Assembly: GCA_029262455.1 (NCBI GenBank)
Contig: JAJCZJ010000053.1
Location: forward strand, 1-64,000
Direction: 5' to 3'
From: Deltaproteobacteria bacterium
GTDB taxonomy: Bacteria > Desulfobacterota > Binatia > HRBIN30 > CADEER01
DNA: 64,000 bases
The translations under genes and the position numbers were made by a program. Position 1 is the first letter of the stretch, and every line of letters begins with the position of its first letter. The notes below the pieces were generated by a model. That model saw only the letters and a list, made by a program, of their open reading frames with translations, was not told where the DNA came from and ran no database searches. Below, piece after piece: positions 21,015 through 39,978 of the stretch.

Positions 21015-21296
21015 AAAGCGGACGCTAGCAATCCGCTCAGCGCGGGGCCAGACTCCCCGGAAAGTTGACGCAAGCAACACGTCCCCCGCCCCGGCCACGC
21101 CCCCTGCACCGCACATCCTGGTCGTCGCGACGCCTCCCGAACCCTCCCCACATCAATCTCAGGAATTTGAAAGTCCCCCCTCCTTACCAAGGAGCGGGCC
21201 AGGGGGTTGTCGGAGCAAGTCGAAGGTCGCAAACAAACACACGGTTGATCCCCTGACCGAATTCCGACAACGATCACGGCTGACCTAGGAGTGACA

Positions 21297-22811
21297 ATGA
21301 CCAGTGAGTGGAAAACGCTCCTCGCAGAACTCGAGAAGCGACGTGCGCAAGCCCGTTCGATGGGCGGCGAAGAAAAGCTCGCCAAGCATCGCGGCTCCGG
21401 CAAACTCGATGCGCGTCAACGGGTTGCCACGCTCTGCGATCCCGGCACGTTCCGCGAGCTCGGCGCGCTGGTCGGCGGCGTCGCCCGCGGCGGACGCGCC
21501 TCCGTTCCAGCCGATGCTCTGGTCGGCGGGATCGGCGCGATCGATGGACGACCGACTGTCGTTTTCGCCGAAGACTTCACCGTCCAAGGCGGATCGATCG
21601 GACTCGCCAACCAGGCCAAGCGCGTGAGACTCGCCGACCTGGCGCTGCAAGAGCAAGTGCCGCTGGTGATGCTGCTCGAGGGAGCCGGCGAACGCGCCAC
21701 CAACGCTCTCGAACGCTACCCCCGCTCTCCCAACGATCTTCAGGTACTCGCTCGCCTCTCGGGCCAGGTGCCAACGGTCGCAGTCATCATGGGATCGTCG
21801 GCCGGGCACGGAGCTTTGTGCGGACTACTGGCAGACTTCGTCGTGATGGTGCAGGGATCGGCTTTGTTTTCCGCTGGACCACCCTTGGTCAAGGCCGCTC
21901 TCGGCGAAGACGTGACCAAGGAAGAACTCGGCGGAGCGGAGATGCACACCAGCGAAAGCGGTGTCGCCCACAACCTCGCCGCCAGCGACGACGAGGCCCT
22001 CGGCATCGTTCGCGACTACTTGTCCTACATGCCCTCCAACGCCAACAGCTCGCCCTCGCTCGACGGTCGCGATGAAGATCGCGGCGAACGCAGACTCGAC
22101 GATATCCTCGACGTCGTACCAGCCGTCATCAACCGCCCCTACGACATGCGACGCGTAACTCAGATGCTTGCCGACCGCGGTCACTTCTTCGAAGTACAAC
22201 CACGCTTTGGCGCGGCAATTCTCACTGGCTTAGCACGCCTTGGCGGACAACCAGTGGCAATCGTCGCCAATCAACCGACCGTCAACGGCGGATCCATCGA
22301 TCGCTGCGCCGCCGACAAAGCCGCTCACTTCCTCGAAGTCGCGAGCGCCTACTCGCTGCCCGTAATCTTCCTGGCAGACAATCCCGGCATCATGCCGGGC
22401 ACATCGGCAGAACGCGCCGGCACACTGCGCGCAGCTGCCCGCATGTATGCAGCGCAAGCAAGGGTCTCCGGACCAAAGCTGCATGTCACCCTGCGCAAGG
22501 CTTTCGGCTTCGGCAGCTCGATCATGGCGATGAACCCGTTCGACGGTCAGACCCTCACTGTCGGATTTCCGACGGTCACCCTCGGAGCCCTACCCGCCGT
22601 CAGCGGCGGCCCCGCAGCCAAACTCGACGCCGCACAACAAAGCGAACTAGAGGCATCCCAGTCCGGCGCCTGGGACCCCGCCGACAGCATGGCCTACGAC
22701 GACATCATCGACCCACGGGAACTACGCAATGCACTGCTGGCCGGACTGAAGCTCGCGGGCAGCCGCGCAGGAGCAGACAACCGTCGCAACCGGGGGATGA
22801 TTAGACCATAG
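21297..22811 (+). CDS. Acyl-CoA carboxylase carboxyltransferase subunit
   Basis: This 504-residue crotonase-fold carboxyltransferase has the N- and C-terminal CT domains of propionyl-, methylcrotonyl- or acetyl-CoA carboxylase beta chains. Typical blocks are FAEDFTVQGGSIG, the first oxyanion segment IMGSSAGHGALC, and the second FLADNPGIMPGTSAE. It transfers carboxyl from carboxybiotin to an acyl-CoA. No biotin carboxylase or biotin carrier is nearby, so it must pair with subunits elsewhere. ATG 21297 is preferred over GTG 21291 because AGGAG is five bases upstream. The stop codon's last base is the first base of the heptanucleotide array. Confidence 0.92.
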   Translation: MTSEWKTLLAELEKRRAQARSMGGEEKLAKHRGSGKLDARQRVATLCDPGTFRELGALVGGVARGGRASVPADALVGGIGAIDGRPTVVFAEDFTVQGGSIGLANQAKRVRLADLALQEQVPLVMLLEGAGERATNALERYPRSPNDLQVLARLSGQVPTVAVIMGSSAGHGALCGLLADFVVMVQGSALFSAGPPLVKAALGEDVTKEELGGAEMHTSESGVAHNLAASDDEALGIVRDYLSYMPSNANSSPSLDGRDEDRGERRLDDILDVVPAVINRPYDMRRVTQMLADRGHFFEVQPRFGAAILTGLARLGGQPVAIVANQPTVNGGSIDRCAADKAAHFLEVASAYSLPVIFLADNPGIMPGTSAERAGTLRAAARMYAAQARVSGPKLHVTLRKAFGFGSSIMAMNPFDGQTLTVGFPTVTLGALPAVSGGPAAKLDAAQQSELEASQSGAWDPADSMAYDDIIDPRELRNALLAGLKLAGSRAGADNRRNRGMIRP

Positions 22812-23012
22812 GGGTACGGAGTGCGGGGTACGGGGTACAGGGTACGGGGTACAGGGTACAGGGTACAGGGTACAGGGTACGGGGTACGGGGTACGGGGTA
22901 CGAAGTGCGGGGTTCGGGGTACGACGTGCGGGGTACGGGGTACGGGGTACGAAGTGCGGGGTTCGGGGTACGGGGTGCGGGGTACGGGGTACGGGGACGA
23001 CGTGCGGGGTAC
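22811..23012 (+). repeat. Heptanucleotide tandem array, consensus GGGGTAC (left arm)
   Basis: About 29 head-to-tail 7-bp units run from the last base of the carboxyltransferase stop codon to 23012. Most are GGGGTAC; variants are AGGGTAC, GGAGTGC, GAAGTGC, GGGGTTC, GACGTGC and GGGGTGC. One unit (22993-22998) has lost a base. A three-unit block GAAGTGC-GGGGTTC-GGGGTAC occurs twice, showing higher-order duplication. There are no spacers, so it is not a CRISPR. An inverted array lies at 23742-23804. Confidence 0.95.
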
Positions 23013-23027
23013 GGATCCTCCCGAAGG

Positions 23028-23064
23028 TTGCATCGGGATGCACGCGGGGATACATTTGCATCCC
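23028..23064 (+). promoter_or_regulatory. Promoter and operator of the toxin-antitoxin pair
   Basis: A -35-like TTGCAT (23028-23033) and a -10-like TACATT (23051-23056) are separated by exactly 17 bp. The -10 lies only eight bases before the antitoxin ATG at 23065, so the transcript would be leaderless or nearly so, and no ribosome-binding site is visible. Two inverted repeats overlap it: TGCAT-CGGG-ATGCA (23029-23042), and GGGATGC (23035-23041) with GCATCCC (23058-23064). These fit autorepression by a ribbon-helix-helix antitoxin. Confidence 0.5.
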
Positions 23065-23316
23065 ATGGAAACACAGGTTAGCCTTCGCCTCGACGACGAT
23101 CTTCTCAGGAGTCTGGACGGCCGCGCTCGCGCCCAAGAGACGACGCGGTCCGCGCTGATCCGCTCGATACTCGTCGCAGCACTCGAAGGGCAGGTTGCGG
23201 AATCCGCTACGCCCTACGATCGGACCCGTGACCTGATCGGCAGCGTGCGCAGCGGAACCAAGCGACGCGGCCGCAAAGAACAGTTGCTCGATGTGATCCA
23301 GGACCGGCGTGGCTGA
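23065..23316 (+). CDS. Ribbon-helix-helix antitoxin (VapB-like)
   Basis: This 83-residue protein opens with a ribbon-helix-helix pattern: strand METQVSLRLDDDLL, then helices with ARAQETTRSALIRSILVAAL. It ends with a basic tail that would wrap the toxin. It overlaps the PIN toxin gene by 8 bp (toxin GTG at 23309, antitoxin TGA at 23314-23316), the standard antitoxin-first arrangement. It should neutralise the toxin and repress its own promoter. An in-frame extension upstream into the repeat array is ignored because it has no ribosome-binding site. Confidence 0.85.
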   Translation: METQVSLRLDDDLLRSLDGRARAQETTRSALIRSILVAALEGQVAESATPYDRTRDLIGSVRSGTKRRGRKEQLLDVIQDRRG

Positions 23317-23722
23317 TCTGCTGCTCGATACCGGTCCGATCGTCGCACTGCTCAACGCAAACGACCCCGACCACCGAGCATGCACTGACTTCTTCGAATC
23401 ATTTCGCGGCAGACTCCTCTCGACCGAAGCCGTTCTAACCGAATCCGTCTACCTACTCGGGCGGATCCCAGGGGGTTCCGAGGCTTGCCTGGAGTTCTTC
23501 ATTCGGAACGCTGCAACCTTGATCTCGCAAAACGGCGAAAGTTTGATTCGCGCGAAGGAACTCATGGCGCGCTACCACGACGTGCCCATGGACTTCGCCG
23601 ACGCGACCCTTGTCTCCCTGGCCGAGGATTCCGACTGCCGCCAGATTTTCACACTGGACCGACGCGGCTTCACGACGTATCGCGCCCACCGCCGCCGTTC
23701 ATTTACGACATATCCCGAGTAA
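23309..23722 (+). CDS. PIN-domain toxin (VapC-like ribonuclease)
   Basis: This 137-residue PIN-domain protein carries the conserved acidic residues Asp7 (LLDTGP), Glu45 (VLTES), Asp98 (DFADAT) and Asp117 (TLDRRGF), which bind Mg/Mn in this ribonuclease family. It starts at GTG 23309 with AGGA eight bases upstream inside the antitoxin gene. VapC-type toxins cleave tRNA or rRNA and arrest growth when the antitoxin is degraded. The toxin stop lies 19 bp before the inverted heptanucleotide array. Confidence 0.88.
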   Translation: MADLLLDTGPIVALLNANDPDHRACTDFFESFRGRLLSTEAVLTESVYLLGRIPGGSEACLEFFIRNAATLISQNGESLIRAKELMARYHDVPMDFADATLVSLAEDSDCRQIFTLDRRGFTTYRAHRRRSFTTYPE

Positions 23723-23741
23723 AACCGTCCCCGACTTTCCC

Positions 23742-23804
23742 GCACCCTGTACCCCGCACCCTGTACCCCGTACCCCGTACCCCGTACCCCGCACCTCGTA
23801 CCCC
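23742..23804 (-). repeat. Heptanucleotide tandem array, inverted copy (right arm)
   Basis: Nine 7-bp units, mainly GTACCCC (reverse complement of GGGGTAC) with GCACCCT and GCACCTC variants, end three bases before the stop codon of the alcohol dehydrogenase gene. With the left array it brackets the toxin-antitoxin pair in inverted orientation. Confidence 0.93.
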
Positions 23805-23807
23805 GCC

Positions 23808-24848
23808 CTACGGTCGCACTACTGCGCGGCCGTCGAGAGTTCCAGCTTCCAATCTGGCATAGGCTTCTTCGACGTGATCGAGCGGGAAGATCTCGACCTC
23901 GTTCCGAATCATCCCCTGCTCGGCGAGCTTCAAAACCGTTCGCGTATCCTCGATCGTCGATCCGGTGTAGGCAAACACATCCGCTTCCTTGTCCGCCAGC
24001 GGTCCGCGCAGATCGTGCTTGTAGACGCCGCCTCCTGCACCGATGATCGCCAAGGTGCCGAGCTTCGACAAGCATCGTAGACCAGCGACCAACGTCTCGT
24101 CGTTCCCGACAAAATCCATCACCGCCTGACAGCCGTCCTTCTCCGTAAGGGCCAGGACCTCACGGACTAGATCCGTCTTCGAGCTGTCGATCACCGCGTC
24201 TGCGCCGTAGTCTTTGGCACGTCGCAGCTTGTCCTCGAGCACGTCCGCTACAATCAGTCGGGCGCCCGTCAACGCCTTCACATACTGCACGCCGAAAGAT
24301 CCGAGACCACCGGCGCCGATCACCAATACCGTCGCATCGGCGGTTAGCTTCGACCGGACACGGTCGAATCCATGGTACGTGGTGGCAGCCGCATCGGTAA
24401 GCGGCCCAGCTAAGGTCGGATCGAGCGAATGCAAAGGCAGGATCGGGCGATCGTTCTCCAGCAGCACGTAGTCGGCGAGCCCGCCGTCCATCCCATAGCC
24501 GCGGCCGACGACCCCGAGGTCACAAACATTGTCGTAGCCCTGGCGGCAAGTCCGGCAAGTGCCGCACGAGCGAATCGAAACCAACGCAACCGGCGTCCCT
24601 ACTTCGAGGCCGGAAATGCCGGCTCCGTAGCGTTCGATCCATCCTCCGACCTCGTGGCCGAGGGTGAACGGTACCGTCCAGCCGATCCCCTCCCCGATCT
24701 CGGCCGGCATGTGCATCATATGAAGATCGGAGTGGCACAAACCACACCCGGCGACCTTGATCAGGAGTTGCCCCGGCCCCGGCTCCGGCCGCGGAACCTC
24801 GACCAGAGCCGGCGGCTTCGTCCATTCGGTAATTTGAAAAGCTTTCAC
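23808..24848 (-). CDS. Zinc-dependent alcohol dehydrogenase (MDR family)
   Basis: This 346-residue medium-chain dehydrogenase has catalytic zinc ligands in CGLCHSDLH and GHEVGG. The structural zinc cluster is C-x2-C-x2-C-x7-C in CGTCRTCRQGYDNVC. The NAD(P) Rossmann motif is GAGGLGSFG. GTG 24848 is the better start, with AAGGTGG close upstream; the frame extends to 24959 without support. It oxidises an alcohol or reduces an aldehyde of unknown identity. It converges on the toxin-antitoxin cassette. Confidence 0.93.
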   Translation of the reverse strand: MKAFQITEWTKPPALVEVPRPEPGPGQLLIKVAGCGLCHSDLHMMHMPAEIGEGIGWTVPFTLGHEVGGWIERYGAGISGLEVGTPVALVSIRSCGTCRTCRQGYDNVCDLGVVGRGYGMDGGLADYVLLENDRPILPLHSLDPTLAGPLTDAAATTYHGFDRVRSKLTADATVLVIGAGGLGSFGVQYVKALTGARLIVADVLEDKLRRAKDYGADAVIDSSKTDLVREVLALTEKDGCQAVMDFVGNDETLVAGLRCLSKLGTLAIIGAGGGVYKHDLRGPLADKEADVFAYTGSTIEDTRTVLKLAEQGMIRNEVEIFPLDHVEEAYARLEAGTLDGRAVVRP

Positions 24849-39685: not shown

Positions 39686-39978
39686 CAGACCCCTCCCAAG
39701 GATTCAGCGAAGTCCCTAGCAATTCACCCAAGCTACGCCAAACGAACACCGTGTGAGCCTAGGGCCCAAATCTGCGGCCGCAGGTTGGTTTGGGTCGCTT
39801 TGATTCTGAGTTCGGCCCAATCGGAACGAAGTTGGAAGGCAGAGGCCGGTGCTGTACGCGGCTCGGCGGCGCCTCTCCCTCCCGGTACACGCCGGTGCTG
39901 TACGCGGCTCGGCGGCGCCTCTCCCTCCCGGTACACGGCTGCTCCCAAACTGACCCACCACCGACAGGCTACATCGCT
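39686..39978. repeat. Repeat-filled gap with perfect 46-bp tandem duplication
   Basis: Two identical 46-bp units lie head to tail at 39845-39890 and 39891-39936. Read on the minus strand, each is a variant of the REP-like element at 7236-7262 and 61054-61080. Upstream, 39777-39793 repeats 33887-33903, and about 39799-39850 aligns imperfectly with 45260-45312. No ORF is credible here. Confidence 0.75.

Follow-up and report, generated by a model that had tools for sequence, protein, structure and literature searches.

Whether two inverted tandem arrays and the gene pair between them make up one genetic unit is the question raised by a locus of a Deltaproteobacteria bacterium, whose contig JAJCZJ010000053.1 was analysed over positions 1 to 64,000; this whole 64 kb stretch is called the window. 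The locus carries a RHH/PIN gene pair resembling VapBC toxin–antitoxin modules, enclosed by two oppositely oriented arrays of the heptanucleotide GGGGTAC that adjoin the stops of a convergent pair of genes. A sequence-only reading of this DNA had proposed that operon and arrays are a mobile cassette whose insertion was guided by the arrays or, as an alternative, that the arrays form a cruciform or two-way terminator. We favour, with a probability of roughly 0.7, an interpretation in which the arrays belong to a dispersed family of G-rich heptamers, the two arms lie behind two convergent stops, the vapBC-like operon is a passenger, and a small protein of the PF05635 family possibly helps the repeats along. 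The window feature is a member, with a new unit, of the type of repeat described by Rehm et al. (2015), with a toxin–antitoxin operon between its arms, and is not a toxin–antitoxin cassette.

The layout initially read from the sequence (a RHH/PIN pair, about 29 GGGGTAC units to the left, nine inverted units to the right and two stops) was borne out. The carboxyltransferase gene on the plus strand (21291..22811; Pfam Carboxyl_trans, E 5.6e-99) ends in a TAG codon at 22809-22811, and the last base of this codon, 22811, is at the same time the first base of the first unit of the left array (22811..23014, plus strand), to which Tandem Repeats Finder assigns 29.3 copies of GGGGTAC at period 7 with 80% matches. 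The right array (23739..23805, minus strand) consists of 9.6 inverted copies, also at period 7 in Tandem Repeats Finder, with the consensus CCCGTAC, and the stop codon of the convergent gene for a zinc-type alcohol dehydrogenase (23808..24848, minus strand; Pfam ADH_N and ADH_zinc_N) follows at 23808-23810, two bases beyond the array's end. The overlap with the carboxyltransferase stop had thus been recognised correctly, while the gap on the right had been put at three bases. The G-rich strand of the left array is the sense strand of the carboxyltransferase gene, that of the right array the sense strand of the dehydrogenase gene, and 724 bases separate the two arms. The left array is degenerate, with 24 units at up to one mismatch, 15 of them exact, within 22811-23053. 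A search for GGGGTAC dimers at up to one mismatch returned 17 places in the 64 kb, all inside the two arrays, and a chance origin was excluded, the maximum among 100 shuffles of the window being 0. An assembly artefact was likewise rejected: contig ends near arrays are to be expected of any repeat, and the window arrays are internal to a 109 kb contig.

The heptamer is not peculiar to this locus. The genome to which the window belongs (G000; 7.3 Mb in 127 contigs) was compared with three genomes of the same genus (G001, G002 and G003) and one of the same family (G004), and holds 155 exact GGGGTAC dimers against 0 for a reversed-pattern control. Arrays were located at a minimum of 33 G000 loci on 21 contigs, a lower bound derived from 100 of the 155 dimers together with arrays of three exact units in a row. 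Contigs C54, C77, C90, C109, C55, C70, C85 and C100 have a GGGGTAC array no farther than about 150 bases from one of their ends, and given such contig ends the genome probably contains more arrays than were counted. Most G000 arrays lie in intergenic gaps, 'non-coding' here resting on genes called near the arrays by a custom codon score, and they range, at up to one mismatch, from 3 to 29 units in G000 and from 3 to 12 in G002. The distribution among genomes is patchy: a GGGGTAC dimer occurs in three of 58 genomes, the own genome included (G000, G002 with 30 dimers and G051 with one), and the search of G001, G003 and G004 gave none. In a collection of one genome per species (84,980 species, the own genome possibly missing) four exact units in succession were found in 48 stretches, in taxa that include Gilvimarinus, Phycisphaerales, Paenibacillus, Streptomyces and Lysobacterales. 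The arrays also have a preferred arrangement. Apart from the window, 40 loci of G000 and G002 yielded 16 convergent pairs with short spacers (9-138 bases; nine in G000, seven in G002) and nothing between the arms; in every one of them the left arm is the G-rich and the right arm the C-rich one, and pairs of the opposite kind within 150 bases numbered 0. Short GGGGTAC arrays at a number of G000 loci (L074, L076, L081, L085, L090, L091, L092, L094, L096, L097 and L098) have beside them another, longer repeat, whose matches measure about 50-170 bases and of which several copies contain GAAAGCCTTCCCCTCTACC; in L091 it is partly tandem. GAAAGCCTTCCCCTCTACC is also present once in a dehydrogenase control locus (L177).

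The closest described counterparts are the G-rich heptamers GGGAATC and GGGGA(C/T)T of Xanthomonas and Nostoc, reported as scattered and mainly non-coding, as lying near stop codons on the coding strand, as most often comprising four units, and as capable of forming G-quadruplexes; in two Xanthomonas genomes the reported convergent inverted pairs number 70 and 75 (Rehm et al. 2015, PMC4692102). The GGGGTAC family shares with these repeats the seven-base G-rich unit, the dispersal, the non-coding location, the convergent pairing and the adjacency to stops, but differs in its unit and lineage, in reaching up to 29 units against 26 for the longest array reported there, and in the toxin–antitoxin operon between its arms. 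The earlier remark that no described element has this layout was half right in this respect, convergent heptamer pairs having been described already. The TAACTGA direct repeats of the Beggiatoaceae (MacGregor 2015, PMC4679880) have in common with the GGGGTAC family the many intergenic heptamer arrays and the patchy distribution across phyla.

The closeness of the window arrays to stop codons is equally a property of the family. Among 34 elements, a set that excludes contig-end arrays, the element with a PF05635 gene discussed below, L095, one array of L098 and the window itself, 22 of the 41 arm ends facing a stop lie at most five bases from it. Random placement of the arrays in the same gaps gives a mean of 12.2, and none of 20,000 simulations reached 22; start-facing ends lie as close in five of 27 cases. 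At the level of RNA, all three non-overlapping G-quadruplex-type motifs on the plus strand of the window fall in the left array, as do two of the three on the minus strand in the right array. For the left array, RNA folding predicts an energy of -118.7 kcal/mol with quadruplexes and -74.0 without them, and the predicted fold of 22811-23805 (995 bases) pairs 60 left-array bases with the 67-base right array, both predictions standing without a shuffled control. Arrays so placed would provide the flanking transcripts with G-rich 3' ends that may fold into G-quadruplexes or, upon read-through, into a long hairpin, and they would probably act as a passive 3' boundary in both directions. The suggestion of a cruciform or two-way terminator survives as a hairpin or two-way 3' end, in keeping with the stop-hugging arms and with a hairpin-like repeat that G000 carries at a junction shared with its relatives (see below).

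GGGGTAC copies occur singly or in convergent pairs, which often take up the whole stretch between a stop codon and the gene that follows; the window arms could be either one such pair or two neighbouring single arrays, each behind the stop of a convergent gene. The second possibility, with two independent arrays each arising behind the stop of its own gene and the vapBC-like operon in place beforehand, has several points in its favour: stop-adjacent single arrays do exist (e.g. L073 and L078) and each window arm obeys the rule that the G-rich strand is the sense strand at its own gene's stop. Between convergent genes six pairs were counted against six other arrays (single or same-sense), and because pairs are no commoner there than other arrays we rate two independent arrays as a serious contender, at somewhat less than even odds. 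Against it speak the six convergent-gene pairs themselves (L087, L088, L099, L100, L106 and L111), which like the window have an arm within five bases of at least one stop.

The genes between the arms make up a compact operon. The RHH gene (23065..23316, plus strand, 83 aa; Pfam RHH_1, E 2.1e-6, above the cut-off), a VapB-like predicted antitoxin, lies directly upstream of the PIN gene (23309..23722, plus strand, 137 aa), a VapC-like predicted toxin, with an overlap of eight bases, and both look intact. The PIN protein matches Pfam PIN_3 at E 2.9e-4 and 22 bits, under the cut-off of 27, and reaches 25.9 bits against TIGR00028, whose cut-off is 73.6, while it matches the solved structure of VapC26 (5x3t) at E 1e-10. 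Because the curated cut-offs are missed while VapC26 is matched, the pair is termed VapBC-like and is no certified member of the family. Residues D7, E45, D98 and D117, which we take to be the PIN catalytic residues, are identical in the window protein and in both congeneric homologues. With its overlapping RHH and PIN genes and its conserved acidic residues the pair resembles type II VapBC modules; unlike these it is enclosed by arrays, and no other of 30 PIN genes is enclosed on both sides. The imperfect 18-base palindrome GGGATACATTTGCATCCC (23047..23064, plus strand), which immediately precedes the antitoxin gene and has counterparts before the G002 homologue (GGGATACATCAGTATCCC) and the G001 homologue (GGGATGCATTAGTATCCC), is probably an autoregulatory operator of the pair. 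A role as a defence module was considered and dropped, PADLOC returning 0 families for both window proteins.

Were operon and arrays one mobile unit, other PIN genes should be found in the same setting, and a few observations speak for the idea: the window layout itself, an operon that is not fixed to its neighbourhood (the vapC homologue and the carboxyltransferase orthologue of G002 sit on different contigs), and, in G002, a single ATCTGGG array of 4.6 copies (L010:2191-2222) directly upstream of the antitoxin gene and beside the probable operator. The survey of PIN genes points the other way. It comprised 30 genes, namely 27 loci among the matches listed (weaker matches left out), the window and the two congeneric homologues. 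Arrays on both sides occur at one of the 30, the window itself, and arrays on one side at two more. A strict test for inverted arrays (a tandem dimer on one flank of the gene, matched by its reverse complement on the opposite flank, within 450 bases) was passed by 2/30 at period 7 against 6/30 at period 5, the second period-7 case (L190) being an A/T-rich match within duplicated neighbouring sequence; in a separate set of VapBC-type loci (including L012-L014) one of six passed at period 7, again the window. The homologues, 71% identical in G002 and 67-68% in G001, are not enclosed by an array pair, and the G001 locus has no heptamer array. The DNA between the window arrays resembles the other loci examined solely at the PIN homologues, and no toxin–antitoxin pair was seen between the arms at other G000 loci, where open reading frames in gaps of 250-1600 bases were inspected and no search for toxin–antitoxin families was made. 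An empty site, sought through both flanking proteins in G001-G004, was not found, the neighbourhood not being conserved. With GGGGTAC arrays at 33 or more loci and homologous operons lacking an array pair, findings of the two kinds that the sequence-only reading had itself named as fatal to its cassette, the homologue and genome surveys lead us to reject a toxin–antitoxin cassette guided by its arrays, to which we would grant a small residual probability. The operon between the window arms is most likely a passenger, one that would neither own nor move the arrays.

The intuition that inverted heptamer arrays can bracket a small gene was sound, the recurring gene being that of PF05635 and not vapBC. 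Proteins of this family ('23S rRNA intervening sequence protein', hereafter IVP) are small four-helix proteins. In G000 itself a GGGGTAC pair on contig C56 (L086) encloses a gene for a 120-residue PF05635 protein (E 1e-33), which also matches TIGR02436 (four helix bundle) and a solved relative, XCC0516 (2gsc; E 8e-25). No PF05635 gene was found between the window arms, where the vapBC-like pair lies instead. The strict test at period 7 was passed by 23 of 48 genomic IVP genes against none of 29 dehydrogenase genes, and by a mean of 0.8 when flanks of different loci were paired. At periods 5, 6, 8, 9, 10 and 11 the IVP counts are 10, 8, 3, 0, 0 and 0, the dehydrogenase counts 9 at period 5, 3 at period 6 and 0 beyond; judging from the period counts in the two sets, short periods carry a chance background from which 7 stands out. 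The 48 genes (63 found, less three duplicates and 12 left out) include the C56 case that prompted the test and come from 15 genomes (G061, whose matches are identical to those of G002, is counted together with it), 12 of them picked for GGGGTAC content, and IVP frequencies there are not general. Plasmid and viral-contig sets were not chosen in this manner. Among 16 plasmid IVP genes (16 of 24 records, some of them close relatives) seven passed at period 7, with 3, 1 and 2 at periods 5, 6 and 8 and 0 at longer ones, and arrays are evident by eye, unscored, at four of five viral-contig IVP genes. Overall 30 of 64 IVP genes (L113-L162 and L218-L233) are bracketed in the strict test, with units that differ. 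A repeat score on both flanks at lag 7 identified 13/48 and 6/16 IVP genes, with at most one at other periods and 0/20 among controls. Of the 19 loci scored for polarity, 18 have the G-rich arm on the left; the 19 include L224, where the units nearest the gene have the same sense on both sides.

The units of the IVP arrays differ among loci: CAGGGGC/GCCCCTG, CGTGAAC/GTTCACG and AGGGGTT/CCCCTAA are found in genomes, AGTAGGG on the plasmid pNe_5 of Nostoc edaphicum, AGGGAAC in Nostoc sp. C052 and TAGGGTG in Calothrix (AP018208.1). The Nostoc edaphicum gene (L218, NZ_CP054697.1) lies with its AGTAGGG arrays between the genes for two ribonucleotide reductase subunits. Three further IVP genes are situated within CRISPR-cas clusters (L223, Anabaena sp. 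90, NC_019429.1; L224, Pseudanabaena, NZ_CP112875.1; L227, NZ_CP016476.1), twice between cas6 and cas4 and once between cas10 and a Cmr3-family gene. A link between intervening sequences and heptamers has a precedent of sorts in the 23S rRNA of Coxiella, where an S23p/IVP open reading frame is reported in a stem loop with a 28 bp terminal stem, preceded by two or three tandem GACAGAT heptamers whose number varies between strains (Warrier et al. 2016, PMC4990558). Like the IVP loci described here it combines an IVP-type frame between inverted repeats with tandem heptamers upstream, and as such it is an independent hint of a heptamer–IVP link. Unlike them it is part of an rRNA and a substrate of RNase III, whereas no rRNA match was found in the IVP loci L152, L114, L086 and L118, nor in the window locus (L009), which has no IVP gene. 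In the literature covered, which took in few subscription papers and so leaves absence unproven, no report of IVP genes flanked by inverted heptamer arrays outside rRNA was found, and in the main text of Rehm et al. (2015, PMC4692102) no mention of IVP was found; the association of heptamer arrays with IVP seems to be undescribed.

A role for IVP in the spread of the repeats is suggested where the heptamer beside an IVP gene is also the one dispersed in the genome, which is the case in three genomes: G000, G001 and Gilvimarinus G066. In G001 the unit CAGGGGC was counted 77 times against 2 for its control, and three congeners gave 2, 9 and 0 with controls of their own of 9, 1 and 3. Gilvimarinus G066 has 82 matches to TCNGACG against 0, one of them about 45 bases from the IVP gene, and G058 has 37 against 0, with a short array of like kind next to its IVP gene; as TCNGACG is nearly self-complementary, many places were counted on both strands and 'inverted' means little in Gilvimarinus. 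In Gilvimarinus agarilyticus (G059, L127) there are four TCNGACG dimers, and the IVP frame, open in G058 and G066, is broken by one TAG. Because the C56 gene lies between GGGGTAC arrays and the IVP heptamer is dispersed in two further genomes, the IVP protein may help a heptamer family to spread or persist, a driver role to which some genomes point but which is not proven as a general rule.

A bolder proposal goes further and makes IVP the maker of the arrays. Array-bracketed IVP genes would then be widespread, unrecognised selfish elements outside rRNA, each lineage with its own heptamer and with a protein that extends arrays or copies them into stop-adjacent gaps; dispersed heptamers such as GGGGTAC, and probably those of Xanthomonas and Nostoc, would be non-autonomous copies, the 23S intervening sequences would be the rRNA branch, and the loops would occasionally hold other genes, the vapBC-like pair of the window among them. 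We put this forward tentatively, regarding both the protein's part as maker and the wider scheme as possible but rather less than probable. A familiar analogue is offered by REP sequences and their RAYT proteins, in which non-coding palindromes are dispersed in a genome and a protein gene is flanked by the same sequence. The analogy has its limits: the repeats are here arrays of a 7-mer, and the protein is no transposase but a four-helix protein that is not known to have nuclease activity.

The opposite view dispenses with a mobile driver altogether, seeds growing by polymerase slippage and hairpin-templated repair and being tolerated in non-coding gaps up to the stop codon, with the IVP link reflecting a shared preference for such gaps. 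Degenerate units and variable copy number agree with it, and Rehm et al. (2015, PMC4692102) likewise discuss slippage as the origin and generally found no mobile element. A junction shared by G002, G000 and G003, with coding ends conserved on both sides and a differing spacer as judged by eye, is also in its favour: where G002 has an array pair of 99 bases, the G000 spacer measures 116 bases and contains an ordinary hairpin-like inverted repeat, that of G003 measures about 147 bases and contains short repeats of other kinds, and the G002 pair has taken the place of the spacer instead of adding to it. Slippage alone, however, leaves unexplained why a heptamer that is scattered in one genome is rare or missing in its congeners, why convergent arms have a single polarity, and why IVP genes but not dehydrogenases lie between arrays, and we hold the view without a driver to be rather unlikely. 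In G003 the spacer before the gene orthologous to L105:3124 (L240) holds hexamer-like GGGCAC/GGGCAT repeats where G002 has GGGGTAC arrays, and GGGGCTG-like heptamer units are visible by eye in G002 (L211, about 1373-1405) just past the stop codon of the gene that converges on the carboxyltransferase orthologue. A perfect tandem duplication of 46 bases, at 39845-39937, is found in another part of the window.

Several findings weigh against the interpretation that we prefer, that of a dispersed heptamer family with a passenger operon and possible help from IVP. The layout of the window fits a split pair and two single arrays alike. The dehydrogenase has no close homologue in the four relatives (best 31%), and the carboxyltransferase orthologue of G002 has a different neighbour. 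As regards IVP, 34 of the 64 genes fail the strict test, as do the other G000 IVP genes examined (C24, two on C108, and C69; C61 was left out) and the three of Gilvimarinus, where moreover the GGGGTAC arrays differ from the IVP heptamer of the same genomes. G002 has 30 GGGGTAC dimers, yet the two IVP genes examined there, out of three, have no heptamer array beside them, and in G062 the IVP heptamer TTGGCTG is hardly dispersed (27 against a control of 16). Finally, loci chosen for their IVP genes (L119, L143, L151, L162 and L224) hold other open reading frames besides IVP between matching arrays, so that bracketing is not special to IVP, which at the same time fits the vapBC-like operon as a passenger. 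A scan of gaps of 250-1600 bases at loci not chosen for IVP yielded two bracketed cases, that of the window and L091, the latter of opposite polarity; the scan is insensitive, since the C56 element escaped it owing to the degeneracy of its left array.

Two consequences follow for the reading of such loci. Inverted repeats that flank a toxin–antitoxin pair need not signal a toxin–antitoxin cassette, and caution is in order where they are met. In the case of IVP, the role of intergenic heptamer arrays is described as still to be elucidated, their origin being addressed by the slippage hypothesis only (PMC4692102), and IVP/S23p proteins are described as having no known function (PMC4990558, PMC11270868). 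If the proposed role is true, the IVP protein would act on the heptamer of its own lineage, in DNA or in RNA. The association of arrays with IVP genes links the role of the one with the function of the other and opens both questions to testing.

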